Source: an uncultured Actinomyces sp. (lineage in GTDB: Bacteria; Actinomycetota; Actinomycetes; Actinomycetales; Actinomycetaceae). From it: a DNA stretch of 31,093 nucleotides. Below the pieces are notes generated by a model. That model ran no database searches, was not told where the DNA came from, and saw nothing but the letters and a program-made list of their open reading frames with translations. Each line of letters opens with the position of its first letter. The stretch's first letter is position 1. The DNA is taken from contig CAJZDJ010000008.1 in the NCBI GenBank assembly GCA_915063485.1, positions 1 through 31,093 of the forward strand, written 5' to 3'. The position numbers were made by a program, and so were the translations under genes. Positions 1,145-31,009 of this stretch are shown in pieces.

Positions 1145-1948
1145 CTAATCGATAGTTTCCTGGGAGTTTCCTGTGCTCACTTGCGATAATAGTGCAATAA
1201 AAGCGCCGGTGCATAGACTAAAGGCACAAAATGCCAACCCAAATTTATTGTTTGTTTGCAAAGCTTGGTCCACATGTAGCAAAACCCAAGCAATTACAAA
1301 GGTAATCAGGGTTAGCCTCACATATGGCTGTGATAATTTCTTGTATTGCACTTGTTGTAAAGGCAGCAATAAATAAGCCCAAAATAGTGCCAAAGCTGTG
1401 GAAGCAAACACGTCAGTCCACAAGTGTGCGGAGCTGACCAGCACCGCAGTGGTGCCCAAAATAAAGGCGCTCAGTGCCCCCACAAAAGCGATTCGCTTGA
1501 AAATACGCGGCAGTTTAGTGGCGCTAAGTGCGGCCATAAGCGGCACGGTAGCCACCAAAATCATGCCAGCGTGACCTGAGGGCATGGTGTTGTAATGGGG
1601 GAAATAGCCGGTGCCATTGATGCCTCCCTGAGGCAGGTAAGGCAGACGAGTTTTAAGCACCTGGATAGTGCCTAGCAGGCCGGCCGCAAAAGCCAACAGC
1701 TGCACTGGCAACAACCAGCGCCTGGCAGCCAAAGCCACCACCACGGCCAGGGCCAAGCTGGCCCCGGCCACCGGGGCCGTGCCCAGCTTGGTAAACACCT
1801 GCACATAGGGCTGAAGGGGACCCATAAACGTATGCAGGCCCAAACCAGCCAGGTAGGCACCCTGTTGGGTAGCCTCAAAAAGGTTGCGGTAAGCCCAGGT
1901 GGCCAGGAAGGTAAGTAGTGCGAGGGAAGCGGGGAGGAAACGTTTCAA
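1145..1948 (-). CDS. PAP2-family membrane protein (polyprenyl/lipid phosphatase-like)
   Basis: This 267-residue protein has several hydrophobic segments and a PAP2 core: PSGH at residues 123-126 and an HxxxD pair at H175/D179 (SAHLWTDV). PAP2 enzymes dephosphorylate lipid phosphates such as undecaprenyl pyrophosphate outside the membrane, which would recycle the carrier used by this locus. The usual first motif (K, then RP) is degenerate: K99 is followed by TRLPYLP. The arginine normally about six residues before the last histidine is also absent, so activity is uncertain. The start appears to be TTG, with AAAGAAG upstream; no ATG is available near it. It begins 17 bases after the sugar transferase stop. 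The C-terminal third is visibly more AT-rich than its neighbours. Confidence 0.72.
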   Translation of the reverse strand: MKRFLPASLALLTFLATWAYRNLFEATQQGAYLAGLGLHTFMGPLQPYVQVFTKLGTAPVAGASLALAVVVALAARRWLLPVQLLAFAAGLLGTIQVLKTRLPYLPQGGINGTGYFPHYNTMPSGHAGMILVATVPLMAALSATKLPRIFKRIAFVGALSAFILGTTAVLVSSAHLWTDVFASTALALFWAYLLLPLQQVQYKKLSQPYVRLTLITFVIAWVLLHVDQALQTNNKFGLAFCAFSLCTGAFIALLSQVSTGNSQETID

Positions 1949-1965
1949 ATGGTTAATTACTTCTT

Positions 1966-3378
1966 TTAATAGGCCCCGCGTGAAGAAAGCACCGCCTGCA
2001 CCGTTTTGGTCAGGATCGATAGGTCTTGTAACGGAGACCAGTTATCAATGTAGTACAGGTCCAGGCGAATGGTTTCATCCCAGGACAGGTCTGAACGCCC
2101 TGAAATCTGCCATAGGCCGGTAATACCCGGGCGCACTCGTAGACGGCGCATCTCATCGGGGGTGTATTTAGCTACCTCACGCGGCAGGGGCGGGCGTGGG
2201 CCAATCAGGCTCATGTCACCCTGGATCACGTTAAACAGCTGGGGGAGCTCATCGATAGAGAAGCGACGAATAAAGCCACCCACCGGGGTGATACGCGGGT
2301 CTTTCTTGAGCTTAAACATGACCTCATTGGTCTTGTTGCCGCCCTGAAGCTGAGCCAGGCGCGCCTCGGCGTCAACCACCATAGAGCGGAACTTGATCAT
2401 CTTAAAGGTCTTACCATCGCGCCCTACGCGCTCTTGGAGGAAGAACACCGGGCCACGGTCGGTAAGGTACACCGCCAGGGCGGTAATAATCATGACCGGG
2501 CTGACCATAATCAGCGCTAGGGAAGCCATGACAATATCGAAAATCCGCTTAGAGTGCGATAGTGCGCCGGCAGAGTTGGGATCTTCTACGTAGACCAGCG
2601 GCATACCACCTACTGGGCGGGTACGGATACGGTCAGCGGCGACGTCGACCAAAGAAGGCACCACAGCCAGCTGAGTGCGGTGACCCTCAAAACGCCACAC
2701 ATAGCGGCGGAAATCAACCGAGTCAGGTACCGAGCCGGGGGCGAAAAGTACCAGCTCAGCCTGGGTGGATTCAGCCAGCTTAAGCAGGTTATCGCTGATA
2801 GAACGGTGGTCACCCTTATAGGTTTCGAGTGCCTCATCAGGGTCAAAAACCAGGTAAGGTTCCAGGCCCAGCCAAGCTGAACGCTTAAGCATCCGGGATA
2901 ACTGCTCAGCCTGCTTGGGGCGGCCCACAATAATCACACGCGAAATACCGTAGCCACGTCGGTGCAGCCAGTGCAGGATGCGGCGGCCAAACAGACGCCC
3001 CAAGGTGATTAGCGGCATCGCAATGATGAACAGCAGCAGGAAGTAAGAGCGTGAGAACTCAGTAGTGGTCATGTATAGCACCAGCGAGAAAAAGCCGATG
3101 TTAAACAGGCCAGCGTTAAGGGCGCGGCGGATACTGATGGTGCCCGAGCCGAACTCGCGTACCGCATAGCCCCCAAAGCAAGCAATTACCACCAACCAGG
3201 CGGCTGAAGCCAGCGGCTTCCAGTGCATAAGTGCCCGGGTTAGGGCCGAGACGTCATTAGAGAACAGACCCGACTGCTCGCGTAAATGCCACGCAATGGT
3301 GAACGACACCCAGATAGCGAGGAAATCAATCACGATAGCGCCTAGGCGCACTAGGTGATTGAAGGTACGTTTACTCAT
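1966..3378 (-). CDS. Initiating polyprenyl-phosphate sugar-1-phosphate transferase (WcaJ/WbaP type)
   Basis: This enzyme would start polysaccharide assembly by moving a sugar-1-phosphate from a UDP-sugar onto undecaprenyl phosphate. The N-terminal third has four or five membrane segments. A Rossmann-like middle part (VIIVGRPKQAEQL) follows, and then the PF02397 catalytic domain: KRIFDIVMASLALI, the QERVGRDGKTFKMIKFRSM block, a DELPQLFNVIQGDMSLIGPR block, and VRPGITGLWQISGRSDLSW. About 470 residues is the normal size for the polytopic subgroup. I chose ATG at 3378; an in-frame TTG at 3384 lies seven bases after an AGG and could be the true start, adding two residues. It follows the GT4 gene by about 35 bases. 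Family is certain; glucose, galactose or an amino sugar cannot be told apart. Confidence 0.93.
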   Translation of the reverse strand: MSKRTFNHLVRLGAIVIDFLAIWVSFTIAWHLREQSGLFSNDVSALTRALMHWKPLASAAWLVVIACFGGYAVREFGSGTISIRRALNAGLFNIGFFSLVLYMTTTEFSRSYFLLLFIIAMPLITLGRLFGRRILHWLHRRGYGISRVIIVGRPKQAEQLSRMLKRSAWLGLEPYLVFDPDEALETYKGDHRSISDNLLKLAESTQAELVLFAPGSVPDSVDFRRYVWRFEGHRTQLAVVPSLVDVAADRIRTRPVGGMPLVYVEDPNSAGALSHSKRIFDIVMASLALIMVSPVMIITALAVYLTDRGPVFFLQERVGRDGKTFKMIKFRSMVVDAEARLAQLQGGNKTNEVMFKLKKDPRITPVGGFIRRFSIDELPQLFNVIQGDMSLIGPRPPLPREVAKYTPDEMRRLRVRPGITGLWQISGRSDLSWDETIRLDLYYIDNWSPLQDLSILTKTVQAVLSSRGAY

Positions 3379-3413
3379 CTTCAAGACGAAACCTACTTGG
3401 GGCAGTTGGGAAC

Positions 3414-4520
3414 TTAAGACAGTGCTTCGACCTGCTGGTGCAGGGCTTGGATGAAACGGTCCAGGGAGAACTTGTCGCCGTGGGCGCGGATTGCGGGGTG
3501 ATCCCAGGTGATTTGCTCGTTCTTTTCCACGATGGCTGCAATATCAGCGCTGGTGGGCTTAGAAAAGAATAGACCAGTTTGGCCTTCTACAACAGTGTCG
3601 AGGTAGCCACCTGCGCGCAGGGCCAGTACCGGTTTACCAAAGCTGTAAGCCTCCAGTGGGGTGAGCCCAAAATCTTCAAAGGAAGGTGCAATCAGGGCCT
3701 GGCAGTTGGCGTATAGCCAGCGCATTTGGCCGTCACTTAAGCCCTGGAACATGCGCACATTATCTGGGCACATAGCCGCCAGACGTTCAGCCTCAGGGCC
3801 CTTACCCACAATTGCTAGCTTGCGCTGGGGCATGTCAGCAAAAGCCGCTATGGCGCGATCAACATTCTTGTAGGGCATCAGACGCGAGACCACCAGATAG
3901 AACTGGCCAGCCCAGCTGGAAATCTCGTCCACAGCTTCCTGGCTGGCACTGGCGTCAATCCCGCCGGGCGGGAACAGTAGGTCAGCCTCAATGCCGTAGA
4001 CGCGCTCAATGCGCTCTTTAACAATAGAGGAGTTAGCCAGGTAGCGGGTGGCGCTGTGAGCGGCGCGCTTATCCCAACGCAGCAGCGGCGCATACACCGC
4101 GTTTAGCCCCAGTACCTTGGGTGAAAAGCGTGAGGACTGGCCCAGGTACTGCTCGCGCAGGTACAGGAAACGGGCCGGGGAGTGGCAGTAAACCAGCTTG
4201 GCGCCAGTGGTTTTAACCCCGTGGGCAAAACCGGTGGAAGACACCAGGGTTACACCGGCATTGATCTTAATTTTCGACGTCGCCGGGGCCAGTAGTGGCA
4301 GGGCGATGCGGTGATCGTGACGGAAGGCCCCTACCCGGTTTAGGCCGGTGACGCGAATATCGGCGTCCTTGAACTCAGGGAAGGTGCCTTCTGGGTCATA
4401 CAGGGTGGTGAAAATCGGGGCCTGGGGAAAAGCCTGGTGCATGGCTAAGGCCACTCGTTCCGCACCGCCACGCTGAGTTAGGTAATCGTGGGCGATGGCA
4501 ACGCTAAAGTGCTCACTCAT
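3414..4520 (-). CDS. GT4 glycosyltransferase (WbaZ-like)
   Basis: This GT-B enzyme has about 368 residues. The N-terminal half has AHDYLTQRGGAERVALAMH, typical of retaining GT4 enzymes, and a CHSPARFLYLREQYL segment like that of WbaZ-type mannosyltransferases. The C-terminal half carries LVVSRLMPYKNVDRAI, GKGPEAERL and the ExxxxxxxE nucleotide-sugar motif FEDFGLTPLEAYSFGKPVLA. It probably adds a hexose from a nucleotide sugar to the lipid-linked chain. ATG at 4520 has GAGAG about eight bases upstream and is preferred to the TTG directly before it. It is separated from the upstream GT2 by about 75 AT-richer bases, so it may be transcribed with that operon but is not coupled to it. Donor sugar is unproven. 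Confidence 0.88.
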   Translation of the reverse strand: MSEHFSVAIAHDYLTQRGGAERVALAMHQAFPQAPIFTTLYDPEGTFPEFKDADIRVTGLNRVGAFRHDHRIALPLLAPATSKIKINAGVTLVSSTGFAHGVKTTGAKLVYCHSPARFLYLREQYLGQSSRFSPKVLGLNAVYAPLLRWDKRAAHSATRYLANSSIVKERIERVYGIEADLLFPPGGIDASASQEAVDEISSWAGQFYLVVSRLMPYKNVDRAIAAFADMPQRKLAIVGKGPEAERLAAMCPDNVRMFQGLSDGQMRWLYANCQALIAPSFEDFGLTPLEAYSFGKPVLALRAGGYLDTVVEGQTGLFFSKPTSADIAAIVEKNEQITWDHPAIRAHGDKFSLDRFIQALHQQVEALS

Positions 4521-4595
4521 CAAAGTCTCTCTTCTGCCTATGGCAAGAATGTAAGGGAAATGGGGCGAGAAAGTAGTTTTATGAAATTTTGTACC

Positions 4596-5528
4596 TTAGA
4601 AGCGGGCGCTGACCTGCTCACTGTGGCAGTAGCCGCTAAGGGAGGCGGCTTCGACGTTCAACGCTACTAATTTAGTAGCAAATGGTCCGGGCAATACGCC
4701 AATAGCGCTATCTGTGAAATTGGCTAGCTGCTCGGTGCTCTCCTCGTTAGTGCGGCTAGCTACCGCCCCAACTAGTTTGCCCCACCAGCCGCCGCCGCTT
4801 GTTACCGGGGCGATAGCGCCGGGGTGTAGCTGGTCGAAAGTGCGTCGTGCTGCGCCTGAATGGTAGGCGCGCATGGCTCGCTTGACGGTGTCTGTGGCCG
4901 CGCCGTGGTGCAGGGTTTCCAGCTCAGGAGCCAAAATTACCGGGATGCCGGCCTCATGTAGGCGGTAGCCGTAGTCCACATCTTCCCAGCCGTAGTGCTG
5001 GTAGGCGGTGTCATAGGGGCCGATTTTTTCCCAGGTTTCGCGGGTAATAGAGCAGTTTGCTGCCCAGTGACGCCAGGGCGGGATAGCACCCCGGTAGGAG
5101 GCGGCCAGGGCTGCGCGGGTGCGGGTAGCGCCGTATACGCGGGTGTACTTTGAGGGCGGCAGGATGTCTATGGTTAGCCCGACGACGCCGCAGGGCTGGC
5201 CTTGGTGGCGCGCCCAGTGCCCAGCGACAAAGTCTGTACCGGGCTCAAGATCGTCGTCGCAGCGCACCAAAACCTGGCCTTTAGCGGCGCTAAAACCAGC
5301 ATTTAGAGCGGCTACGCGGCCTTGATTTTGCTCCAGCACCACGGCCCGTACGGGCGCCTTGCTGGCGAAGGAGTCGATGATCTCTAGGCTGTTATCAAGC
5401 AGCCCGTCGATTACCACTACCGCCTCAAAGTCGGTGTCGCTTTGCTGGCTTAAGGCGTTAAGCAGCGTAGGTAGCTTGGTGGCTCCCCGATAGGAGGGGA
5501 TGATGATGGAAGTGCGCGGTTGGTTCAT
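4596..5528 (-). CDS. Family 2 glycosyltransferase
   Basis: This is a 310-residue GT-A protein. It shows TSIIIPSYRGATKLPTLLNA at the N-terminus, NQGRVAALNAGFSAAKG near residues 68-84, the metal-site DDD at 91-93 and a GWEDVDYGYRLHEAG acceptor/base segment at about 180-194. It has no convincing membrane segment, so it should act in the cytoplasm on a lipid-linked acceptor. Its ATG overlaps the stop of the membrane ligase-like gene by four bases (ATGA), indicating translational coupling. It is the last gene of the coupled run that starts at neuA. Sugar specificity is unknown; rhamnosyl- or galactosyltransferase are the common possibilities for this type. Confidence 0.87.
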   Translation of the reverse strand: MNQPRTSIIIPSYRGATKLPTLLNALSQQSDTDFEAVVVIDGLLDNSLEIIDSFASKAPVRAVVLEQNQGRVAALNAGFSAAKGQVLVRCDDDLEPGTDFVAGHWARHQGQPCGVVGLTIDILPPSKYTRVYGATRTRAALAASYRGAIPPWRHWAANCSITRETWEKIGPYDTAYQHYGWEDVDYGYRLHEAGIPVILAPELETLHHGAATDTVKRAMRAYHSGAARRTFDQLHPGAIAPVTSGGGWWGKLVGAVASRTNEESTEQLANFTDSAIGVLPGPFATKLVALNVEAASLSGYCHSEQVSARF

Positions 5529-6811
5529 GCCTTGCTGGCCTCTTCTTCCAACTTGTCGTATTTGGCCATGACATTTTCGTGCCCAGCCAGGTAGTTAACC
5601 AGCTTGTTTTGGCTGGCGCGCAGATCCTCTTCAACCGGAGCTTCAAGTTTGGTTAGCTGCTCTTCGTCAGCGCCGGGGGCGTGGGCCCACCAGGTGCAGG
5701 CAGCCAGGGCCAAACAAGCGGGGTAAGACAGGAACACGTTGCCCAGGTTGGCCGCACACACCAAAATTGCGATCGGGGCGGCTTCAAGGTAACGGTTAGG
5801 TAGGGTGGATAGCGGGTGGCTGACCTTGACGATGGTGAGTACTACTAGCGTCAGCATCAGGTAGAACATGATCCAGCCGCCTTCAGCGCGTAGCAGTAGG
5901 TAACTGGAGTGGAAGAAGAACTCGTTTACACCCAACTTGACGGTAAGGGTGCCGGGGCCGTGACCAACGAAGGGGTTTTCGGCCACCAGCTTTTCTTCCA
6001 GCGGTACGATCAGTGAACGCAGGTGGTCAGAACCAGCACGGTCAGAGAATGAACCCTCGTTCTTGACGTCGTTGGCGTAACCAATCACCGCTTTGTATAC
6101 GCCAAACAGTAGCGTGGCTTTAAGCCAAACATTAAAGTTTTTAGGGATGAACACCCAAGCCAAAGCCAGGCCCAGACCCAGCCAGGTGGTACGTGAGAAG
6201 GTTAGGAAAATACCCAGCATGGAGATAGCCAGCACAATGAAGTACTTGCGGTTACGCTGGGCAATACCGGCGTAAACCAATCCCAGTGCCAGTAGGTGCA
6301 AACCGGCGGTGTTGGGGTCACCAAACATACCGATCATACGGCCGGGGTAGGTTGATTGAGGCAGGGTGATAATGCCGTAAGCGGTGGCGATAACCTGCGA
6401 AACTCCAATAGAACCCACCAGGGCCCGCATGTTTAGACGCCCCGAGGTGGAGGCGGCAATTACCAGCGCCCAAGCCACGATGTGGCCCATGCGGGTAAAA
6501 GGTAACTGGTCGTTGTAAACACCTGCGATTGCCATCCAAGCGGGGATGGCAAACAGTAACATGCGGTAGCCGAAAGCCGGTTGCCAGCCCACCTTGGGTT
6601 TACGCCCAAAGGCCATGATGGACAACAGTATGGCGCTGATGTCAGCTACCGGTACGCCAGGGGCGAAGCCCTCCAGACGCAAACACAGCGGGATGAACAG
6701 GATCATTTCCAGCAAGGACGGGGATTTACGCAGCAGCGCCTGCAGCGAAGAATCATCCTTGCGGAAAAACACATCCCAGTCGATAGCGCCGGGCTTAACC
6801 GCGCGGCTCAT
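5525..6811 (-). CDS. O-antigen ligase/polymerase-like membrane protein
   Basis: This 428-residue protein has roughly ten hydrophobic segments. The first stretch (EMILFIPLCLRLEGFAPG) and the middle part (GMFGDPNTAGLHLLALGLVYAG, then TFSRTTWLGLGLALAWVF) match the Wzy_C/O-antigen ligase superfamily PF04932. A soluble loop with VGHGPGTLTVKLGVNEFFFHSSYLLLRAEGG holds the conserved glycine/histidine region of that family. It probably polymerises repeat units, or ligates the finished polysaccharide to its acceptor, outside the membrane. The C-terminus after about residue 380 is a charged, probably helical cytoplasmic tail. It overlaps its neighbours on both sides by four bases. Ligase and polymerase cannot be separated by sequence alone. 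Confidence 0.82.
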   Translation of the reverse strand: MSRAVKPGAIDWDVFFRKDDSSLQALLRKSPSLLEMILFIPLCLRLEGFAPGVPVADISAILLSIMAFGRKPKVGWQPAFGYRMLLFAIPAWMAIAGVYNDQLPFTRMGHIVAWALVIAASTSGRLNMRALVGSIGVSQVIATAYGIITLPQSTYPGRMIGMFGDPNTAGLHLLALGLVYAGIAQRNRKYFIVLAISMLGIFLTFSRTTWLGLGLALAWVFIPKNFNVWLKATLLFGVYKAVIGYANDVKNEGSFSDRAGSDHLRSLIVPLEEKLVAENPFVGHGPGTLTVKLGVNEFFFHSSYLLLRAEGGWIMFYLMLTLVVLTIVKVSHPLSTLPNRYLEAAPIAILVCAANLGNVFLSYPACLALAACTWWAHAPGADEEQLTKLEAPVEEDLRASQNKLVNYLAGHENVMAKYDKLEEEASKA

Positions 6812-7848
6812 TTAACCTCCTGGGGTAGCACGTCGGTAAGGAAAGCGGCGATGCGCTTAGTGGCCGCCTCAGGGGAGAATTTGCGCTGCCAGCGCTGCCA
6901 TTCTTTCTCAGCCTGCTTGACCCGTTTGGTGGGGGTGGTGTCCACTAGGGCGGCGACGGCGTCGGCTAGCTCCTGGGCCTTACCGGGGGCCACCTGGTAG
7001 GGGTAGTCCCGGCCAGCAACCTCAGGTAGAGCGCCGGCGATAGAAGTCACGAAGGGCACCTTGGCGCTCATAGCTTCAGCGACCATAAGCCCAAAGGACT
7101 CGGGGCAAATAGAGGGGAAAACCGCCACATCAACCAGGTTGAAGAAGTCTTCACGCTTAGTCCAGCCTAGCTGCTTGGTGAAGCTGGCGATAGGGGCCAG
7201 GGCGGCACTTACCCGCTCGCGCTCGGCGGCGTCGACAAAATGCGGCTCACCGGCAACCACCAGCTCAAAAGCATTCCCGCGAGTGGCGTTTAGCTGTGCC
7301 ATAGCCTCAGCTAAAACCTCAATGCCCTTATCGGGGCTGGGGCGGCCCAAGAAACCCACCGTGATAGGGGCCTTAAGGTCACCTTTAGGCTCGGTTTTAA
7401 CCTCCTCGCACCAGTTGTAAACAATCTGGGAGGTGGGGAAGTGCTTAGCCATGGAGGCGCTGGGCACTGCTAAAGCTAAGGCGCCGTGCGCGGCCATCCT
7501 GCCAGAAACCACATGCTTAAAGCTGGGGGCCTGGTGTAGGTGCACAATGCGCTGGGGGTGACCCATGGTGGCCAGGGCGGGTACATGCCCGTGGCACCAC
7601 AGCACCCCTTGACGCTGGCTGGCATCCCAGGCGCGCAGGTTACGCATATAGGCTTTGCGACCCTGGCCCTTGATAGCCACAGTGGCAAAACCGGCTTTAG
7701 CGGCAGCCGCCCCTACGCCGTCGGTAAGGGCAGGGGCCACCACGGTGACATCATGGCCAAGCTGACGCAGCACCTTAGCGGTGCGTAGCAGCATGACCTC
7801 GCCGCCACCAATTTCGCCGTTATTAGCCGCTAGGGTAAAGCGAGTCAC
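6808..7848 (-). CDS. GT4 glycosyltransferase
   Basis: This GT-B protein has about 346 residues. The start is taken as GTG at 7848, since it overlaps the preceding stop by four bases (GTGA) and has AGGGG eight bases upstream. A longer frame from GTG at 7887 would add 13 residues that do not belong to the fold. The protein begins TRFTLAANNGEIGGGEVMLL, the glycine-rich loop of GT4 enzymes, and later has VGFLGRPSPDKGIEVLAEAM and the ExxxxxxxE motif in CPESFGLMVAEAMSAKVPFV. It should add one sugar during repeat-unit assembly in the cytoplasm. Donor and acceptor are unknown. It sits inside the coupled neuA-to-GT2 run. Confidence 0.87.
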   Translation of the reverse strand: MTRFTLAANNGEIGGGEVMLLRTAKVLRQLGHDVTVVAPALTDGVGAAAAKAGFATVAIKGQGRKAYMRNLRAWDASQRQGVLWCHGHVPALATMGHPQRIVHLHQAPSFKHVVSGRMAAHGALALAVPSASMAKHFPTSQIVYNWCEEVKTEPKGDLKAPITVGFLGRPSPDKGIEVLAEAMAQLNATRGNAFELVVAGEPHFVDAAERERVSAALAPIASFTKQLGWTKREDFFNLVDVAVFPSICPESFGLMVAEAMSAKVPFVTSIAGALPEVAGRDYPYQVAPGKAQELADAVAALVDTTPTKRVKQAEKEWQRWQRKFSPEAATKRIAAFLTDVLPQEVK

Positions 7849-8930
7849 TTGAAACACCCCTGATAGACCTTGACGATGGAGTGACACATGTCGGACACGC
7901 TAGGCCAGTAGGGGTTAAGCTGCGGGCGTTGGGCCAGCTCTAGGCCCTGGCTGGCTAGCGCCTGGGCGATAGCAGCGACGTCATAAGCATCCACTAGACA
8001 CTGGCTAGGCAGAATCTCGGGGTTACCGCCAACCGGCGTGGCCACCACACCCATGCCGCTAACCACCGCATCTAGCAGCGAGTAAGAGCAGTTCTCCCAC
8101 ACCGACAGCTGGGCAAGTACATCGTGGCTAGAGAGCGCCTGGGAGGCGTCAACAAAGCCGGGGAAGTCAACGCAGTCAGTTAGCCCCAGCGACTCAACCG
8201 CGCCGCGCAGGGCTGCCTCCTCCTCGCCGGTGCCGGCAATAGTCAGCGTGGCCTGGGGGTAATCGCGCTTAAGCAGCGAGAACCCCTTAAGCAGCTCCAA
8301 AATGCGCTTTTCTGGCGCCAGGCGGGCCAGGGACAAAATCCGCAGGCCCTCCTTGCGCTGGCTGGGCGCGGTGGGGGCGTCGACGCCGTTGTGCAGCACG
8401 TCGATCACCCGGCGCGGGTGCCACTTGGCTTCCATGGCGTCAGCGGTGGCCACCGAGCAGGCCATAAGCGCATCGAAACGCTCACAACGCACCTGGTGGG
8501 CGCGGCTCATCAAAGCCGATTTGAAGCTACTGCCGTGGTAGACACTGTCATCGTAAGCGATGCCATGCTCAGTTGACACCAGCTTGGTGGGGCAGGTTAA
8601 CGGCACCGCCAAGGCGCCCACAATGTCTGCATAGGCTAGGTGCGTGTGCACAATGGCCGGGCGTAGCTTGGCTACCGCGTGGCGCAGTACCCGCACTGAA
8701 GCGGCCAACCCATAATTGGGCCCGAAGCTTTCAGCCAGCACTGGCACACCTAGCTGGGTTAATTCCTCAGCTAGCGCTCCTGGTGGGCACAGCACCACCA
8801 TGCGGGTACGGGGCAGGCCGGTGCGGGCGACGTCGAGAACATGACGTGCCACCCCACCGATCTCAGCAACCGGAACTACCCATAGCGCGATTGGTGCGTT
8901 ACCCGCTACGCCTTTATAAGCCACTGTCAC
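7845..8930 (-). CDS. GT4 glycosyltransferase
   Basis: This is a 361-residue GT-B protein. The N-terminal part has VAEIGGVARHVLDVAR, the donor-side glycine-rich loop, and VHTHLAYADIVGALA; the C-terminal part has LSLARLAPEKRILELLKGF and TIAGTGEEEAALRGAVESL. The usual ExxxxxxxE motif appears as ENCSYSLLD, with aspartate in the second place, a conservative but real change. The GTG start overlaps the NeuB-fusion stop (GTGA) and follows GGAG by eight bases. It should extend the lipid-linked glycan. Its position directly after the NeuB fusion gives no firm clue to its donor; it could be the enzyme that receives the nonulosonate, but most GT4 enzymes use nucleotide-diphosphate sugars. Confidence 0.86.
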   Translation of the reverse strand: MTVAYKGVAGNAPIALWVVPVAEIGGVARHVLDVARTGLPRTRMVVLCPPGALAEELTQLGVPVLAESFGPNYGLAASVRVLRHAVAKLRPAIVHTHLAYADIVGALAVPLTCPTKLVSTEHGIAYDDSVYHGSSFKSALMSRAHQVRCERFDALMACSVATADAMEAKWHPRRVIDVLHNGVDAPTAPSQRKEGLRILSLARLAPEKRILELLKGFSLLKRDYPQATLTIAGTGEEEAALRGAVESLGLTDCVDFPGFVDASQALSSHDVLAQLSVWENCSYSLLDAVVSGMGVVATPVGGNPEILPSQCLVDAYDVAAIAQALASQGLELAQRPQLNPYWPSVSDMCHSIVKVYQGCFK

Positions 8931-11185
8931 AGGTACTTCTCCAGGCGGTCTAGGGCGGTCCAGAAGCCCTCACCATTGTTAACGTGACCCATCCAGATTT
9001 CTGGAATGAAGGACACGCCGGGGGCCAGGCGGTCAAGCTGCTCAGCCAGCTCAGGCCAGTTAACGTCACCCTCGTCGATCTGTACGCCCTCACCGTCAAC
9101 GCCCTTACCATCAACAATATGCAGGTGGGCAGCTAGCGGGGCGAGGATCTCGGTGTATTCACGCAGCGGGCGGTGCTCGTGGTTAGCTGACAGCATCGAG
9201 TGGGAGATGTCGTAGGTGATCTGTAGGCCGCTACGCTGGGCAAAGTCACGCAGCGCCTCAGGGCTCATAAACAGGTTGTGGTACTGCTGACCACCCAGTA
9301 GCCACGGGTAAGGCGGCAGAGTCTGGGGGGCTAGGCGCACACCGGAGTAGTCCACATGCTTTAAACCCTCAATGATGCGGTCATACATGGCCGGGATACG
9401 CTCAGGGTCAACCGGACCTTCCTTGGTGAAACCACCCAGGGTGGCGATAAAGACCGGGTCCTGTTCCTGAGTGAAGTAGGGGCGCAACGACTTGGTGATG
9501 TCGATAGTGCGCTGTAGCTCGCGGATAGAGCGCTCCCACACGGCGTCGTCGGGGGAGGCCAGATCCAAAATAAAGTCACCGCTGAACAGGTCAGGCAGGT
9601 GGCAGGTGTAACCCATGGGTAGCGGGTTATCCTTGTAGGCCGCGAACACCTCGTCCACGTCCATGTCCAGGTCCTTGTAGGAGTAGTGGAACTCCAGGAA
9701 GTCCGGCTTGGCGCCGGCATCCAAAATGGCCTGGAAGTCGTGGTAGCGCACCGGCACACCCCACGGACGACGGAAGTGGTAGTCGCGCGGGCGGGCGGGG
9801 TTGTCGGAGATGTCGCCCTCGTAGAAGAAGTCGCCGGCAGCTACGTTGCGGCGAGCAATGCGGCCCACCAGCTTGTCTAGCGAGTTGGGCTGCAGGCCAC
9901 GGCCGGGGCTCTTAACGTCGACGGCGTCGGCGGTGATGCGCTCACCGGACTTGATGTCACGGGCGGCCACCAAAGACTTAGCCAGGTTGGCGCGGTTCAT
10001 GAACTCACCGGGGGCCACCACGCGGGCCTCGGCGGTGCCCAGGGCGGCTTCCACGTCACGGATTTGACGCACCATGGCGGCAAACTCGTCAGGCAGCAGC
10101 GAAACCTTGTGGTCGTTACCTTCAAGGTTGCGGTCAATGGTGAAGTGCTTTTCGATTACTGAAGCGCCCAGGGCCACAGCAGCCATGGGGATGTGGTAGC
10201 CGCGCTCGTGACCGGAGTAGCCCACCGGGCAGTCACCGATCTCAGCTAGACGCTGCATGTAGCGCAGGTTTAGGTCCTTGAAAGGGGCCGGGTAGGTGGA
10301 CTGTACCTGGAGTAGGGCGTAGGGGGCGCCGTAGCGACGCAACAGGGCCACCGACTCCTTGATCTCATCCTCGGTGCTCATACCGGTGGAGACGATCATG
10401 GGCAGGTTTTCTTTAGCGGCGGCGGTTAGCAGCGCGTGGTTGGTTAGGTCAGCGGAGGCAATCTTTAGGCCGTCGACGCCGTACTCTAGCAGTACCTCTA
10501 GGGAGGGTAGGTCCCAGGGGGTGCACATAATGTCAATGCCCTTGTCGCGGCAGTGATCGAAGACCTCGATCATCTTGGGGGCCGACAGGGAGAAGCGGGT
10601 GAGCAGGTCCAGGGTGTACTGGGCGCCCAGGTCCTCGCCGGCAGTGATCTTGCCCGAAGCACCACGGTAGAGGGCGTCCATGTCACGCAGCTGGAACTTA
10701 ACGCAGTCAGCCTTAGCTTCCACAGCTAGGTCTACCAGCTGCTTGGCTAGGTCAACATTGCCCTGGTGGTTGTTACCAATTTCAGCGATTACGAAGGTGG
10801 GCTGGTCTTTACCAACGCGGTGGCTACCAACGGTGAAGGAGTCGTTGCTGGGGGAGGCGATGGCCACCATGCGGCCACGGGTATCTAGCACCGGCACTAG
10901 GCTGACGCCGTCGCGGAACTTCCAGTCCAGCTCGTCAACCAAGGTGCCCTCGGTGACGGTGCGCGGGGAACGGTTAGCTACCTTAATGGCGCTGGTCTCC
11001 ATGTTGGAGTTGCCGGCGGTAAGCCAGCGACGCACGTCGCCGTCGGTAAGTGAACCCTGTAGTACGCCATGCTCATCTACCAGGAAGATAGTGCGGGCCT
11101 TGTTGGCGTTGATTTTAGCTAGGGCGCTGAGCAAAGAGTCATCAGCGAAAGCTACATAAGGGGTAATGGAACGCTCGATGCTCAT
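8927..11185 (-). CDS. neuB: CBS-NeuB-SAF-sugar isomerase fusion (nonulosonic acid synthase)
   Basis: This is a 752-residue multidomain protein. Residues about 1-115 are a CBS pair (RTIFLVDEHGVLQGSLTDGD). About 125-380 is the NeuB TIM barrel, with FVIAEIGNNHQGN, CVKFQL, MIVSTGMS, YSGHERG and GASVIEKHFTID. About 398-460 is the SAF/antifreeze-like domain (ANLAKSLVAARDIKSGERIT). About 473-752 is a second TIM barrel of the xylose isomerase-like/AP endonuclease 2 family, with likely metal ligands in FLEFHYS, YDISHS, HIVDGKG and PEIWMGH. NeuB condenses phosphoenolpyruvate with an N-acylated hexose (ManNAc or a 2,4-diamino-6-deoxyhexose) to give a nonulosonic acid. Standard NeuB is about 340-350 residues, so both ends are additions. 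The ATG overlaps the neuA stop by four bases. The exact sugar (Neu5Ac, legionaminic or other) is not decided by sequence. Confidence 0.9.
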   Translation of the reverse strand: MSIERSITPYVAFADDSLLSALAKINANKARTIFLVDEHGVLQGSLTDGDVRRWLTAGNSNMETSAIKVANRSPRTVTEGTLVDELDWKFRDGVSLVPVLDTRGRMVAIASPSNDSFTVGSHRVGKDQPTFVIAEIGNNHQGNVDLAKQLVDLAVEAKADCVKFQLRDMDALYRGASGKITAGEDLGAQYTLDLLTRFSLSAPKMIEVFDHCRDKGIDIMCTPWDLPSLEVLLEYGVDGLKIASADLTNHALLTAAAKENLPMIVSTGMSTEDEIKESVALLRRYGAPYALLQVQSTYPAPFKDLNLRYMQRLAEIGDCPVGYSGHERGYHIPMAAVALGASVIEKHFTIDRNLEGNDHKVSLLPDEFAAMVRQIRDVEAALGTAEARVVAPGEFMNRANLAKSLVAARDIKSGERITADAVDVKSPGRGLQPNSLDKLVGRIARRNVAAGDFFYEGDISDNPARPRDYHFRRPWGVPVRYHDFQAILDAGAKPDFLEFHYSYKDLDMDVDEVFAAYKDNPLPMGYTCHLPDLFSGDFILDLASPDDAVWERSIRELQRTIDITKSLRPYFTQEQDPVFIATLGGFTKEGPVDPERIPAMYDRIIEGLKHVDYSGVRLAPQTLPPYPWLLGGQQYHNLFMSPEALRDFAQRSGLQITYDISHSMLSANHEHRPLREYTEILAPLAAHLHIVDGKGVDGEGVQIDEGDVNWPELAEQLDRLAPGVSFIPEIWMGHVNNGEGFWTALDRLEKYL

Positions 11186-25607: not shown

Positions 25608-26365
25608 ACCAGTCTTTTGCTGCCCTGCTGCTGGCGGCGCGTAGGCAACATCAACTGGTGATTGCTACGGCGCTAACTGATGGCGAGCCTAGCGGCCAGG
25701 CCCACCAGGCTCGTCTGGCCCAGCAGCAGGGGGCAGGGGCCCTGGAGCTGCGCGCAGACCTGCTAGCTGATCCCGCCCAGGTGCGCGCAGCGCTGACGGC
25801 AGTGCGGGCAGCCTCCAGCTTGCCGCTGCTGCTGACCTACCGCTCAGCTACTGAGGGCGGTAAAGGTGCTGGTCACGGCCAGGGGTATGAGGATTATTTG
25901 GCTAGTTTGCTACAGTTGCGCCCGCCCGTGGCTGCGCTAGATATAGAGATGGCTTGCCCTGCCAGTAAGGCGCTGGTAGCTGAGGCTAAAGCGGGTGGCT
26001 ACGACGTCGTCGGCTCCTGCCACGACTTTACGGCCACCCCCAGCGCGGCCCAGATAACCCAAAAACTGGCGCAAATTACTGCCGCCGGCGTGGATATCAC
26101 CAAAGTGGCTTACATGCCACGCACTGCCCAGGACGTGGCCGCGCTACGACATGCCGCCCATGACTTTGCCGGCGCCTACCCCCACCAGCCCCTAATTGCT
26201 ATTTCAATGGGCCAGCTGGGCGCCCCAAGCCGCACTGACCTGGCCAATTGTCTGACCTTTGCGACAATCGCCGACGGCGCTGCTAGCGCCCCAGGACAAG
26301 CAACTATCGCCCACATGAAAGCCTGGCTAGAAAACACTGCGGGGACAAGTACTATAGAACTATGA
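25604..26365 (+). CDS. aroD: Type I 3-dehydroquinate dehydratase
   Basis: AroD dehydrates 3-dehydroquinate to 3-dehydroshikimate by a Schiff-base mechanism in aromatic amino-acid synthesis. The 253-residue protein keeps the active-site set: E48 and R50 in ALELRADL, H140 in SCHDF, the Schiff-base lysine K167 in DITKVAYMP, R210 in LGAPSR, and S228/Q232 in ASAPGQ. The start overlaps ppx by four bases (ATGA) and the stop overlaps the nucleotidyltransferase. Many actinobacteria use the unrelated type II enzyme (AroQ), so the type I form is a lineage marker. No other shikimate gene is in the window, so its operon partners are unrelated to it. Confidence 0.93.
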   Translation: MNQSFAALLLAARRQHQLVIATALTDGEPSGQAHQARLAQQQGAGALELRADLLADPAQVRAALTAVRAASSLPLLLTYRSATEGGKGAGHGQGYEDYLASLLQLRPPVAALDIEMACPASKALVAEAKAGGYDVVGSCHDFTATPSAAQITQKLAQITAAGVDITKVAYMPRTAQDVAALRHAAHDFAGAYPHQPLIAISMGQLGAPSRTDLANCLTFATIADGAASAPGQATIAHMKAWLENTAGTSTIEL

Positions 26366-27240
26366 GCCAGCCCCTCGACTCCTCCTCTCGGGCCGCTGGA
26401 ATCCCCATCGGAATTCGCGCGCATTTAGCCCACGCCGCCTTGCAGGTCCTAGCGCAAGACGCAGGCGTGGATATTTTGCATATCAAAGGCCCGGCAGTTC
26501 ACCCCAGTATTGGCCGCGCCCTAACCCACAGCACCGATGCCGATGTGCTGGTGCGCCCAGAGCAAGTAAAGCTATACGTCAAAGCCCTGCTAGATCACGG
26601 CTGGCGTCACAACACCTCATTTGAAACCGGCTCCGCCTTCGAGCACGCGGCCACCTTCTTCCACCCCACCTGGGGATATGTAGATCTGCACCGGCGTTAC
26701 CCGGGAATTACCGCGCCCAAAGCTTTTAACAACCTCTGGGCGCGGCGCATCCACCAAATGCTTGGCGGGGTTCGCTGCGCTACTCCCGCACTAATCGATC
26801 AGCGCCTAATTTTGCTGCTGCACGTAGCGCGCAACTCCTCGGGGACGTCAGACCCCGACTATGCCCTAGTGTGGGCAACCCTAGACGAATGCGCCCAAGC
26901 AGACCTGCGCCGTCGAGCCCGGGAGCTAGGGGCCCAAGTGGGGCTAGCCGCCGCGCTAGGAGAACTAGACCAATACCGCCAAGACCCCACCCACGACCTG
27001 TGGATGATGTTCTCCACCGGCGAGGGCGGGCGCCTAGACGAGTGGAAAGCCCGCTTCAAAGCAGCTAACGGCCCGCTAGCTAAAGCCCGCATTGTGGGCC
27101 GGGCACTGCTAGTTAACACCGATCACCTAACCATGCGGCTAGGCCACGAACCCACCCCGGCTGAAGTGCGCCAAGAATATGTGGAGCGCTACCGGGCGGC
27201 TTTGCGTGAAGGAATGGACAAAGTTAAGGGGAAACTGTGA
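26362..27240 (+). CDS. PF14907-type uncharacterised nucleotidyltransferase
   Basis: This 292-residue protein has the hallmarks of the NTP_transf_5 (PF14907) family: HIKGPAVHPSIGRA near residues 40-53, the DAD metal pair at 59-61 in STDADVLV, and a WGYVDLHRRYPGI segment with D108. A helical C-terminal part follows. Family members have a polymerase beta-like nucleotidyltransferase fold; they occur in polysaccharide clusters and in some peptide-modification clusters, but the modified target is not known to me. It overlaps aroD by four bases and the PqqD-like gene by four bases (GTGA), so it is made together with the PqqD-like protein and the phosphatase. Confidence 0.8.
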   Translation: MSQPLDSSSRAAGIPIGIRAHLAHAALQVLAQDAGVDILHIKGPAVHPSIGRALTHSTDADVLVRPEQVKLYVKALLDHGWRHNTSFETGSAFEHAATFFHPTWGYVDLHRRYPGITAPKAFNNLWARRIHQMLGGVRCATPALIDQRLILLLHVARNSSGTSDPDYALVWATLDECAQADLRRRARELGAQVGLAAALGELDQYRQDPTHDLWMMFSTGEGGRLDEWKARFKAANGPLAKARIVGRALLVNTDHLTMRLGHEPTPAEVRQEYVERYRAALREGMDKVKGKL

Positions 27241-27524
27241 CCTACCTGCACCCCTCACGCCTGGGTTACTATGACGACCCCACTGAGCAGGCCATTTACT
27301 TGGCGCCACTACCCGACGGTGAAATCTCCAGGCTAGAAGGCCCCGCCCGCGCTATTTGGATTGGCGCTGATGGGGCTGAGAATGTGGCTGAAGTAGCCCG
27401 GCGGGTTGCCCCCTATTTCAATGTTACGGCTGACCAGATTGAGGCAGACGTAAGCGAATTTGTTAGTCAGCTAATTGCCGGCGCACTTCTGGAGGAAGTC
27501 ATGGACCTAAAGGATGCCCGATGA
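27237..27524 (+). CDS. PqqD-like protein
   Basis: This 95-residue protein fits the PqqD family (PF05402): a short beta region, then SRLEGPARAIWIGADG, VAEVARRVAPYFNVTADQIE and VSEFVSQLIAGALLEEV, the winged-helix pattern that binds leader peptides in PQQ and RiPP pathways. No radical SAM enzyme or precursor peptide lies nearby. Stand-alone PqqD-like proteins next to PF14907 nucleotidyltransferases are seen in polysaccharide clusters, where their job is unknown. Start GTG overlaps the upstream stop; its own stop overlaps the phosphatase ATG (ATGA). Confidence 0.78.
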   Translation: MTYLHPSRLGYYDDPTEQAIYLAPLPDGEISRLEGPARAIWIGADGAENVAEVARRVAPYFNVTADQIEADVSEFVSQLIAGALLEEVMDLKDAR

Positions 27525-28090
27525 GCGGCAGTTACGGGGCTTCACCCCGGTTGCTGTTTGTGTGCACCGCCAACATTTGCCGTAGCGCCTATGCTGAGGT
27601 GCGCGCCCGCCAAATGCTGGGCTTGGATGCTGGCTGGGCCTTTTTTAGTGCCGGCGTGCCGGGCACGGTTGGCCGCGAAATGGACCCGCCCATGGTGGCC
27701 CAGGCGGTGGCGCGTGGCGTGGCCCTGGAAGACTGCCTGGCTATGCGTTCACGCCAAATGCGTGAAGGGATTTTGCGCCGCTCGCGCCTAGTGGTGACCA
27801 TGGCTAACTCGCACCGTGTGGCTTTGCTTGACGATTTTCCCGCCTACGCTGAGCGCTACTGGACTTTAGGGCAGCTAGCCGACGCCGCCACCTTGCTCCA
27901 GCGTGATGACGCCTGGCTGAGCTATGACACTGACCAGCTAGTGCAGGCGCTACATGCAGTGCGCGGCCCGGCCGGGGGCGGACGCGACGTAGCTGACCCG
28001 TATCGGCGTGGAGATGCGGCTATGGCTGCGGCGGCCGATACCATTGATGCGTACTTGCGCACTATTCTGCCGCTACTATCGCGCGGCTAG
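27521..28090 (+). CDS. Low-molecular-weight protein tyrosine phosphatase (Wzb/CpsB role)
   Basis: This 189-residue phosphatase carries the CX5R signature C15-TANIC-R21 (LLFVCTANICRSAYAE) and the general-acid D159-P160-Y161. LVVTMANSHRVALLDD in the middle also fits the family. Such enzymes remove phosphate from the tyrosine cluster of the cognate BY-kinase, which cycles capsule or exopolysaccharide assembly; that kinase is encoded at 29093. The last 21 codons and part of the stop are repeated exactly at 28932-28994. The TAG stop lies in a 12-bp palindrome (28083-28094), followed by a T6 run at 28102-28107 that might act as a weak terminator. It overlaps the PqqD-like gene by four bases. Confidence 0.9.
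   Translation: MSGSYGASPRLLFVCTANICRSAYAEVRARQMLGLDAGWAFFSAGVPGTVGREMDPPMVAQAVARGVALEDCLAMRSRQMREGILRRSRLVVTMANSHRVALLDDFPAYAERYWTLGQLADAATLLQRDDAWLSYDTDQLVQALHAVRGPAGGGRDVADPYRRGDAAMAAAADTIDAYLRTILPLLSRG
28027..28089 (+). repeat. 63-bp perfect direct repeat, copy 1
   Basis: Bases 28027-28089, the coding end of the phosphatase through the first two bases of its stop, are identical to 28932-28994. The copies are 905 bases apart, in the same orientation, and flank the stand-alone Wzz gene. Sequence on both sides of each copy differs. Confidence 0.95.
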
Positions 28091-28166
28091 CCGCCAATAA
28101 ATTTTTTATACCTTCCCCGTCCGCTCCCTGAATCCGCTAAAACATTTAGAAAAAGGGAAAATTAGC

Positions 28167-28799
28167 GTGACAACTTCAAATTCTGCTAGGAAACTTCTTA
28201 GATGCGTGGGTTTGATAATCCTCTGCGGGCTCTTGGGGTTAGCTGGCGGGCTTGGTTATGTCAGTGTTCAACCAAAGCTCTACACCGCTACTTCCCAGGC
28301 GATGGTGGTAGTTTCCGGTACCGATGCTTTTAGCCAGAACTCTATTTCTAGTCAGAAAGCTAGCGCGTATGCAGTCCTAGCTGGTTCACAGAACGTGGCT
28401 AACCGCGTGGCTAAGACCCTCAAGACCTCCAGCATGGAGGGCACTCTTAGCGGTAGTGCTGACGCCGCTCCCGGTCTGTTCACTCTGACCGCCACTGCTT
28501 CCACCCCGGAGCGTGCTCGTGATATCGCTAATGCTGGTATCAAGGCCGTGTCTGATGAGGCTAACGCGATTGCTACTCAGGGTGAGTCAAGTCAGGGTGG
28601 TTCAAGCGAGGCTGCTGATAACAGCGAGGTTCGCGTAACCCAAACCCTTAAGGCGCTTACCCCAAGCGAGCCCAGCTTCCCTACCTCAAATGATTTTCTC
28701 ATTAAAGGTTCTCTGGGGACTCTGGGCGGTCTAATAGCTGGTGGCCTGTTGCTGGCTGGCTACCTGCGGATAGCTAGTCCGGTAAAAGATAAAGCCTGA
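28167..28799 (+). CDS. Stand-alone Wzz-like polysaccharide copolymerase
   Basis: This 210-residue membrane protein has one segment at about 12-34 (CVGLIILCGLLGLAGGLGYV), an outside Wzz/chain-length domain, and a second segment at about 181-203 (GTLGGLIAGGLLLAGYLRIA), with a very short cytoplasmic end and no kinase domain. It is a paralogue of the N-terminal 220 residues of the next gene: residues 39-135 differ at only seven positions. Codons 1-38 and the part after 135 are much less alike. It may compete with or modulate the full kinase by mixed oligomers. GTG at 28167 follows AAGGGA by eight bases. It has its own second membrane segment, so it is not just a broken kinase gene. Confidence 0.8.
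   Translation: MTTSNSARKLLRCVGLIILCGLLGLAGGLGYVSVQPKLYTATSQAMVVVSGTDAFSQNSISSQKASAYAVLAGSQNVANRVAKTLKTSSMEGTLSGSADAAPGLFTLTATASTPERARDIANAGIKAVSDEANAIATQGESSQGGSSEAADNSEVRVTQTLKALTPSEPSFPTSNDFLIKGSLGTLGGLIAGGLLLAGYLRIASPVKDKA
28281..28571 (+). repeat. 291-bp near-identical Wzz block, copy 1
   Basis: Codons 39-135 of the stand-alone Wzz gene align without gaps to 29207-29497 in the kinase gene. I count about 17 base differences by eye. Sequence before and after this block is far more diverged. Confidence 0.88.
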
Positions 28800-28869
28800 C
28801 CTGTCTAGGAATTTGGTCGCGTTCAGCTAGTAGTGGCTGTGAATTAGAGCGACTAGTAGTAATGCTGGC

Positions 28870-28995
28870 ATGGATAAAGCATTGTTGGGCATGGCTAACG
28901 GCGTGGGGCTTGGATCAGGTGCGATAATAAGTGCGGCGGCCGATACCATTGATGCGTACTTGCGCACTATTCTGCCGCTACTATCGCGCGGCTAA
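28870..28995 (+). pseudogene. Duplicated phosphatase tail in a 41-codon chimeric frame
   Basis: An ATG at 28870 opens a 41-codon frame. Its first 20 codons (MDKALLGMANGVGLGSGAII) match nothing here, and its last 21 codons repeat the phosphatase C-terminus, from SAAADTIDAY (alanine in the serine position of the parent) to the final glycine, then TAA. It lacks the catalytic loop and cannot be a phosphatase. No good ribosome site precedes it. I read it as a duplication remnant. Confidence 0.6.
28932..28994 (+). repeat. 63-bp perfect direct repeat, copy 2
   Basis: Identical to 28027-28089. Here the frame ends in TAA where the phosphatase ends in TAG; identity stops exactly at the third stop-codon base. 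It lies 98 bases before the kinase start. Confidence 0.95.
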
Positions 28996-29092
28996 AGGCC
29001 TAGTTGATACCGTACTAACATATAGATTTTTCAGGTTCCCCACCTGATCCCTGGCATCGCCAGGCCGCTCGGAAGAAGGGCAATAACCCACT

Positions 29093-31009
29093 GTGACAAT
29101 CCAAGACTTTATTAGGATGACCCGGGTCAACCTGGGTTTCTTAATCCTATGCGTGCTATTGGGTCTAGCCGGTGGTTTCGGCTATGCCAGCGCCCAGCCA
29201 TGGACCTACACCGCTACTTCCCAGGCGATGGTGGTAGTTCCCGGTACTGACGCTTTTAGCCAGAACTCTATTTCTGGTCAGAAAGCTAGCGTGTATGCGG
29301 TCCTAGCTGGTTCGCAGAACGTGGCTAACCGCGTGGCTAAGACCCTCAAGACCCCTAGTATGGAGGGTACTCTTACCGGTAGTGCTGACGCCGTTCCCGG
29401 TCTGTTCACTCTTACCGCTACTGCCTCCACCCCGGAGCGTGCTCGTGATATCGCTAATGCCGGTATCAAGGCCGTGTCTGATGAGGCTAACGCGATTACC
29501 ACGCTTAACGCGCCTACTGCACGGCCCACCACCCAGACCACCACTAACCCTGATGGTACCCAGGTAACCACCACCACCCAGAGTGTGGATGGCACCACCA
29601 GTGTAACCACCAGCGACAACAGCTACCGCGATACCCGCGTAACCCAGACCCTGCAGGCAGTTGCCCCCGGTGCCCCTAGCTCCCCTGACTTCTACAAGCT
29701 CAGCGGCATGGGTGCCCTAGCTGGCCTGGTAATCGGCTACCTGGTGGTATTCATGCGCCGCCTTATGGACAACCGTGTACGCCACAACTCCGATGTTGAG
29801 GAGCTGCTGGGTTCTTCCGTACTTGCGGTTGTACCTAAGTCCACTGAACTGAACGCCAAGGGCCGTCAGAACGTAGACGGTCTGGGTCAGGCTGCTGAGG
29901 CCCTGCGTCACCTACGTACCAACCTGCGCTTCGTGGATGTTGACAACCCGCCGCGCGCAATTGTTATGACCAGTGCTAACCCTGGTGAAGGTAAGTCCAC
30001 CATGTCTGCCGTGTTGGCACAGATGCTGGCTTCTTCCGGCCAGCGCACCGTGCTAATTGACACCGACTTGCGTAAGCCCGTGGTGCACAAGATCTTCGGC
30101 CTAGATGGTTCTGTGGGTCTAACCCAGATCCTGGCCGGTGACATGCAGCTGTCTGATGTTGCCCAGAAGATTGAAGGCCAGCCCAACCTGCGTGTTGTGC
30201 CCGCCGGACGTATCCCTCCCAACCCCTCAGAGCTTTTGGGCTCCCAGCGTATGAAGGCCTTGATGGACTACCTCAAGGACGACGCCATGGTGATCATGGA
30301 CGCCCCGCCGCTACTGCCGGTTACTGACGCCGGTCTGCTTGCGGCTCTGGCCGACGGCGCCATCTTGGTCATGGAGGTGGGTGGCACCTACAAGGAGCAG
30401 GCCCGCCTGTGTGGCAAGATCTTCAAGCAGGTTGACGGCCGTCTGCTGGGTGTAGTGCTCAACCGTGCTTCACGTCGTAACCTCGGTAGCGTTTACTACG
30501 GTTACGGTTACGGTGGCTACGGCCAGAACTACTACTACTACGAGGAAGACGAGAAGCGTAAGCTGCTTGGCTTCATCCCGCTGCCCGGTCACCGCAAGCG
30601 CAAGCGCGAAAACCAGATCGTCTCCATCCAGGAGGAAGAGGTCCACCCTCTGCCTAAGGACAAGCAGAGTCGCCGCGCTGCCCGCCGCGCTGCCCGCACC
30701 GAGGCCCCGGCTCAGGTACCCGCTCAGCTACCTGCCGCCACCATGACGGCCGCTCCCGAGCCTGCCCCGCGCGTTAGCACGGTGGTTAACCCTGAGCCGG
30801 TAAGCGTACCTTCTGTGCAGGACTCTGCTGACGACACCGCCACCACTGAGGCTGTTGCCAGCCCGGTAAGCACCGGTATGCCGCTGCCTACTGCCTCCAT
30901 CAGCCAGCCGGTGGGTGAGGAAACTGCCGTGCAGACCTCTGCTGCCTTCGGTGCCCCGCAGGCTAGCGTGCCCACGCGCCGCTCGCTGCGTGAGCGTCGC
31001 AATGGCTGA
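29093..31009 (+). CDS. Wzz-tyrosine kinase fusion (Wzc/CpsD-type BY-kinase)
   Basis: This 638-residue protein should set polysaccharide chain length and drive export through cycles of tyrosine phosphorylation. Membrane segments lie at about 14-33 and 204-222, with the outer Wzz domain between. That domain has a Thr-rich insertion (about 138-176) absent from the paralogue. The cytoplasmic kinase has the oligomerisation motif ExxRxxR at 269-275, Walker A ANPGEGKST at 295-303, Walker A' LIDTDLRKP at 321-329 and Walker B VIMDAPP at 400-406. A cluster of nine tyrosines lies at 468-483 (YYGYGYGGYGQNYYYY). Unusually, this is followed by about 155 residues with basic patches and a Pro/Ala/Val/Thr-rich tail. 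GTG at 29093 is the apparent start. Confidence 0.93.
   Translation: MTIQDFIRMTRVNLGFLILCVLLGLAGGFGYASAQPWTYTATSQAMVVVPGTDAFSQNSISGQKASVYAVLAGSQNVANRVAKTLKTPSMEGTLTGSADAVPGLFTLTATASTPERARDIANAGIKAVSDEANAITTLNAPTARPTTQTTTNPDGTQVTTTTQSVDGTTSVTTSDNSYRDTRVTQTLQAVAPGAPSSPDFYKLSGMGALAGLVIGYLVVFMRRLMDNRVRHNSDVEELLGSSVLAVVPKSTELNAKGRQNVDGLGQAAEALRHLRTNLRFVDVDNPPRAIVMTSANPGEGKSTMSAVLAQMLASSGQRTVLIDTDLRKPVVHKIFGLDGSVGLTQILAGDMQLSDVAQKIEGQPNLRVVPAGRIPPNPSELLGSQRMKALMDYLKDDAMVIMDAPPLLPVTDAGLLAALADGAILVMEVGGTYKEQARLCGKIFKQVDGRLLGVVLNRASRRNLGSVYYGYGYGGYGQNYYYYEEDEKRKLLGFIPLPGHRKRKRENQIVSIQEEEVHPLPKDKQSRRAARRAARTEAPAQVPAQLPAATMTAAPEPAPRVSTVVNPEPVSVPSVQDSADDTATTEAVASPVSTGMPLPTASISQPVGEETAVQTSAAFGAPQASVPTRRSLRERRNG
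29207..29497 (+). repeat. 291-bp near-identical Wzz block, copy 2
   Basis: Codons 39-135 of the kinase gene, in register with 28281-28571. Both blocks start at codon 39, so recombination between them would keep the reading frame. Confidence 0.88.

Follow-up and report, generated by a model that had tools for sequence, protein, structure and literature searches.

Organization of the locus

The window, by which we mean the entire stretch of 31,093 nucleotides (31 kb) analyzed here from an uncultured Actinomyces sp., contains on its plus strand a series of genes in the order nucleotidyltransferase-like, PqqD-like, low-molecular-weight tyrosine phosphatase, WzzS and fused Wzz-tyrosine kinase. WzzS is a name coined in this analysis for the stand-alone Wzz gene. 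The phosphatase (27521–28090; 189 aa, stop codon TAA) was recognized by the PF01451 profile with an E-value of 2e-14, and the 3' end of its frame, together with the first two bases of the stop, constitutes copy A1 of an exact 63-base repeat (28027–28089). It is followed by 76 intergenic bases (28091–28166), by WzzS (28167–28799), a kinase-less polysaccharide co-polymerase paralogue of the Wzz type with 210 residues, by a spacer of 132 bases (28800–28931), by the second repeat copy, A2 (28932–28994), and by a 97-base leader (28996–29092) that precedes the kinase (29093–31009, 638 aa). Copy A2 is apparently a non-coding duplicate of the phosphatase end; an open frame of 41 aa that runs across it in the phosphatase frame (28870–28995) has no ribosome-binding site obvious by eye and is probably due to chance. 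The two copies are identical in 63/63 bases at a spacing of 905, in agreement with the preliminary description of this DNA, which had reported perfect 63-bp repeats flanking the stand-alone Wzz gene. As there is no other same-strand repeated 20-mer in the window, leaving out those with a copy starting in 28000–29500, a repeat of this length is far beyond chance.

The kinase scored 153.6 bits against TIGR01007 (cut-off 108.05) and shows the Walker A' and B signatures, among them the motifs VLIDTDLR and MVIMDAPP, and a tail with nine tyrosines at residues 468–483. A GxxxxGKST-type pattern was not matched, although GEGKST is present. With these features it belongs to the fused BY-kinases of the PCP-2a class, whose membrane and kinase parts reside in one protein, as outlined in PMC12220298. 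As in the PCP-2a systems of Wzc, Ptk and BceF with their low-molecular-weight phosphatases, the kinase combines a weak Wzz domain with Walker A'/B motifs and a tyrosine-rich tail, and a phosphatase gene lies upstream; the contrast is that the fused kinase is preceded here by another copy of its Wzz half, lacking a kinase. Note that the databases also hold clusters of the same kinase without its N-terminus (P0242–P0245), one of which, P0244, has 30 members that start after the second helix. These short proteins may be gene calls at contig edges or a truly split form.

WzzS itself reached 24.8 bits against the PF02706 profile, just below the cut-off of 25.5, and had no NCBIfam match; many near-identical proteins bear a precomputed PF02706 assignment. 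Its predicted fold is that of a co-polymerase, with a first transmembrane helix, a periplasmic alpha/beta domain and a second transmembrane helix, and the structure model, at a mean pLDDT of 63.9 and hence of modest confidence, resembles KpsE, Wzc and Wzz. After the second helix the chain continues for no more than about 10 residues and consequently has no counterpart to the DNRVRHNSDVEELLGSSVLAVVP stretch of the kinase. The linker at 28572–28660 varies in length between strains through short Ser/Gln/Gly stretches, giving proteins of 209–215 aa.

Comparison of WzzS with the kinase

Aligning the region with itself indicates that a larger tandem duplication, about 0.9 kb in length and overlooked in the preliminary description, begins on its left with the 63-mer and comprises the phosphatase 3' end, the intergenic region and the Wzz domain of the kinase. 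Phosphatase end, leader and Wzz half occur twice in the same order, the signature of a tandem duplication, with the right-hand copy lying inside the kinase gene. Judged from these alignments, WzzS reproduces the N-terminal part of the neighboring kinase and leaves out the kinase domain. Positions 28207–28506 match 29133–29432 over 300 bases with 87% identity at an offset of 926. The two leaders, 76 and 97 bases long, have diverged but are identical at 40 of 62 locally aligned bases, a score equalled by none of 2000 shuffles in local and by 3 of 2000 in global alignment. The C-terminal DNA of WzzS matches that of the kinase poorly, yet better than 500 of 500 shuffles.

The 132-base spacer resembled neither phosphatase nor kinase convincingly, nor any other part of the window, as expected for a decayed junction, and we presume that it marks the old point of duplication. 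Alignments of the spacer as a decayed piece of phosphatase or kinase were discarded, as their scores lay within the shuffle range. Softer scoring against the phosphatase gave 14.0, which is 2.3 standard deviations above the shuffle mean of 10.4 (maximum 15.5), and 8 of the 15 bases just before A2 also match in a 78-base repeat pair; both are hints only.

A copy of a target's 3' end within an insert is also what would be left by a mobile cassette that integrates into the 3' terminus of the phosphatase gene and rebuilds it, as integrative elements do at the ends of tRNA genes. Besides WzzS, however, no frame of at least 80 aa is open in the unit, the only other one noted being the 41-aa frame, so that the encoded recombinase typical of integrative elements was not seen there. 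Moreover, the cargo of this supposed cassette copies the adjacent gene, and the leader in between is homologous as well. We regard such an insertion as very improbable.

Two islands of high identity

Along the unit, the likeness of the two copies is markedly uneven. In the one DNA copy of the locus on which it was measured, representing a single strain and the only source for A2, the 63-mer is identical throughout, the leader at 40/62 bases, codons 1–40 at 63% of nucleotides, and codons 41–135 (28287–28571 in WzzS, 29213–29497 in the kinase) at 94%. The copies thus diverge strongly in the intergenic DNA, the first membrane helix and the C-terminus, and two islands are nearly alike. In the periplasmic core, 17 of 285 bases differ between the paralogues and 89 of 95 residues (94%) are identical, against 21 of 40 (52%) in the N-terminal part. 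Where both copies specify the same amino acid, their codons also differ less often in the core (10 of 89) than in codons 1–40 (10 of 21; Fisher p = 0.0005).

Among 13 kinases of other lineages, the four same-species entries P0241–P0244 being left out, the core is 38–49% identical and codons 1–40 are 42–65% identical, with the higher value in the N-terminus in 12 of 13 cases. The core is therefore not unusually conserved between species, and selection on the protein alone hardly explains the likeness of the paralogues within it, which leaves recombination between the copies, or gene conversion, as the best cause. Within the putatively converted tracts paralogues are more alike than orthologues, synonymous sites included, as in concerted evolution. 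Copy A2 seems to be non-coding, or lies in the doubtful 41-aa frame, and yet it has not a single change relative to A1. Taking the rate at same-residue codons of the core crudely per base, the chance of 63 straight matches is about 0.0005; set against all core bases (0/63 versus 17/285 differences) the excess is borderline, with p = 0.05. From these patterns we infer that the two islands are most likely kept alike by recombination between the copies, although DNA exchanged with other strains could leave the same picture as such conversion.

Another way to keep A2 intact would be direct selection, if the repeat were a working element in front of each Wzz gene, such as a promoter, a leader signal or the end of the 41-aa peptide. 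The A copies end 77 bases before the start of WzzS and 98 bases before that of the kinase, the 41-codon open frame takes in A2, and the predicted fold of the A2 leader is matched by 3 of 200 shuffles (z = -2.3). On the other hand, the fold of the A1 leader is ordinary (z = -0.5), as is that of the repeat alone (z = 0.8), no sigma-70-like promoter was found in 27900–29200, and the search of the repeat for a promoter or a special RNA fold produced nothing convincing. Selection would furthermore have to preserve every one of the 63 bases, even at synonymous positions, next to a leader that has drifted. A working element of this kind is in our judgement unlikely.

Arrangement in related genomes and excision of WzzS

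The preliminary description had proposed a comparison of related genomes for forms with and without the gene, and the form without it was found in relatives. Of 213 genomes of the family, the four with the best kinase matches, including an Actinomyces sp. MAG (L001) and A. vulturis (L002), have the phosphatase directly followed by the kinase, with no WzzS in between and with gaps of 75 (L001), 77 (L002), 62 (L083) and 85 bases (L084). Two alternative gaps in other reading frames, 207 bases for L002 and 7 for L083, were dropped because the tails are not those of a phosphatase. Searching the same 213 genomes with WzzS yielded matches in 48, and the single match in each of these four relatives was the kinase itself. 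In the 13 locus records compared, two pairs of which represent the same place, any match to WzzS overlapped the kinase (13/13). Wzz-like frames of 216–245 aa, at 27–31% identity, occur in further members of the family. Within the 213 genomes, identity to the kinase peaked at 62%, with 70% reached along part of the protein. A scan of genome contigs with the kinase as query found no match, and with a kinase alignment it gave 79 loci (from the best 80 of 185 relatives) of at most 62% identity, so that no locus of the source species is among them. Viral contigs contained no match to WzzS or to a 35-base segment of the repeat.

The nucleotidyltransferase-like (PF14907) and PqqD-like genes upstream of the phosphatase (26362–27524) are also present in L001, L002 and L083, as a conserved company; note that the stretch available for L084 starts too near the phosphatase to reveal these neighbors.

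When the flanks of the repeat were joined in silico, 905 bases were lost and the phosphatase remained unchanged at 189 aa with its TAA stop, as had been claimed. The 98 bases previously given as the resulting distance to the kinase hold if one counts to the start base, while 97 bases lie between the stop and the GTG codon. Since the phosphatase is directly before the kinase in the four relatives, this excised form equals the unduplicated one. Deletion can also be envisaged between the two Wzz cores, whose longest exact run is 39 bases. Here 926 bases would be removed, and at all four joints tried in silico the kinase frame stayed open, yielding an in-frame chimeric kinase of 638 aa. According to the available part of PMC3519483, direct repeats in the chromosome of M. 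smegmatis undergo perfect deletions about 1000-fold over background and do not need RecA, a figure that belongs to the repeats of the construct used there. Because direct repeats are deleted so precisely in that actinobacterium, WzzS can probably drop out via the 63-mers (905 bases) or via the cores (926 bases), and we infer that such loss would proceed at some rate.

Clean excision is thus possible by architecture and its product is the arrangement seen in the relatives. The further proposal of a phase-variable switch was not supported. In that proposal recombination at the 63-mers would remove WzzS often enough for cells of two chain lengths to coexist in one population, and the WzzS-bearing form would be regained by exchange with cells that carry it. 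Perfect repeats, preserved frames, a product equal to the unduplicated arrangement and the precedent from M. smegmatis speak for this scheme. Against it, the unit has no recombinase that we could see, generic recombination between repeats leads to deletion in one direction only, and intact WzzS is common in the databases, so that we consider a switch improbable. In Salmonella, opvAB offers a precedent for phase-variable O-antigen chain length, but in the available part of PMC3350482 that switch is described as controlled by Dam methylation and OxyR, without repeat recombination. We read the 63-mer as a scar of the duplication that is kept sharp by recombination, rather than as a switch.

Diversity of WzzS proteins

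Intact stand-alone WzzS is common, with 120 relatives listed of 316 matches in a protein search, data that reveal carriers alone. The 120 are those most similar to the query, all with 209–215 aa, and one allele occurs in 579 contigs, the longest of 2.1 Mb. Among the 111 of the 120 that start with MTTS, there are 3 variable sites in codons 1–40 and 23 in codons 41–135, which form 53 different core types. Compared with the kinase of the window, the 120 proteins differ at 18–20 of 39 N-terminal residues and at 1–10 of 95 core residues, with just one core difference in two of them. For the source species two kinase N-termini were available, that of the window and P0241. Of the 136 pairings among variable sites, 75 have all four combinations of the two most frequent residues. 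As far as can be read from these alignments, the pattern is consistent with cores being exchanged with that of the kinase and from strain to strain.

The 63/63 and 94% islands by themselves appear young, and the near invariance of the first 40 residues of WzzS, with 3 variable sites in 111 proteins, is also expected of a recently spread segment. The whole unit might accordingly be a recent duplication or import in which leader, first helix and C-terminus were replaced by diverged DNA. Independent replacements to the left and to the right of the core would be needed, with hardly a change to either island, and we rate this reading slightly below even the switch and the selected element.

Proposed origin and function

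We favor with reasonable confidence an old duplication whose islands are homogenized by recombination, with WzzS acting as a kinase-free ring subunit and its loss as a by-product. In this sequence of events, a tandem duplication of about 0.9 kb would have taken in the 3' end of the phosphatase gene, the leader after it and the Wzz portion of the fused tyrosine kinase. Phosphatase and kinase would have remained whole, the extra copy would have become WzzS, a two-helix co-polymerase without a kinase, and the spare phosphatase end would have been left as A2 ahead of the kinase. Divergence would since have affected the greater part of the duplicate, while gene conversion or unequal exchange, whether inside the cell or involving DNA from other strains, would have re-made the 63-mer and the periplasmic core alike. 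The same repeats would make an occasional clean loss of WzzS likely, with no dedicated switch.

WzzS may be a kinase-free co-polymerase subunit that mixes with the kinase. It would join it in the membrane ring and thereby dilute phosphorylation from neighbor to neighbor, with a shifted polymer chain length as the outcome. More tentatively, in such mixed rings conversion might both keep the contact surfaces matched and generate new core alleles, resulting in a fast-evolving, repeat-tuned control of length that is reset by loss via either repeat pair.

The locus is a variant of a known co-polymerase architecture, the new element being the kinase-less copy of the Wzz half before the fused kinase. 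It shares a separate membrane Wzz protein beside a tyrosine kinase with the PCP-2b modulators, such as CapA of S. aureus. CapA, however, is described in PMC3795738 as requiring a C-terminal juxtamembrane segment, its last 30–50 residues, to activate its kinase. WzzS does not have such a segment, and the neighboring kinase already has a Wzz half of its own. In contrast to the kinase-free PCP-1 regulators WzzB, FepE and WzzE, WzzS is shorter than the listed Wzz chains and would be descended from a kinase. Literature searches on Wzz/kinase duplication, gene conversion of co-polymerase paralogues and Wzz or capsular kinases in Actinomyces returned nothing on this locus in the available parts of the matches listed. 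How the kinase state of a co-polymerase signals the end of polymerization was called unclear in a 2025 review (PMC12220298, in its available part). A kinase-less sister subunit that is matched in the core and unmatched in membrane segments and tail would readily test whether the kinase dose of the ring sets chain length, and the locus illustrates how a separate modulator may originate from a fused kinase.

Elsewhere in the window, at 1145–11185 on the minus strand, lies a surface-polysaccharide cluster with PAP2, a sugar transferase, glycosyltransferases and NeuB joined to a TIM-barrel domain; a match to Wzy_C within it is weak and below the cut-off. This cluster is a likely customer of the kinase.
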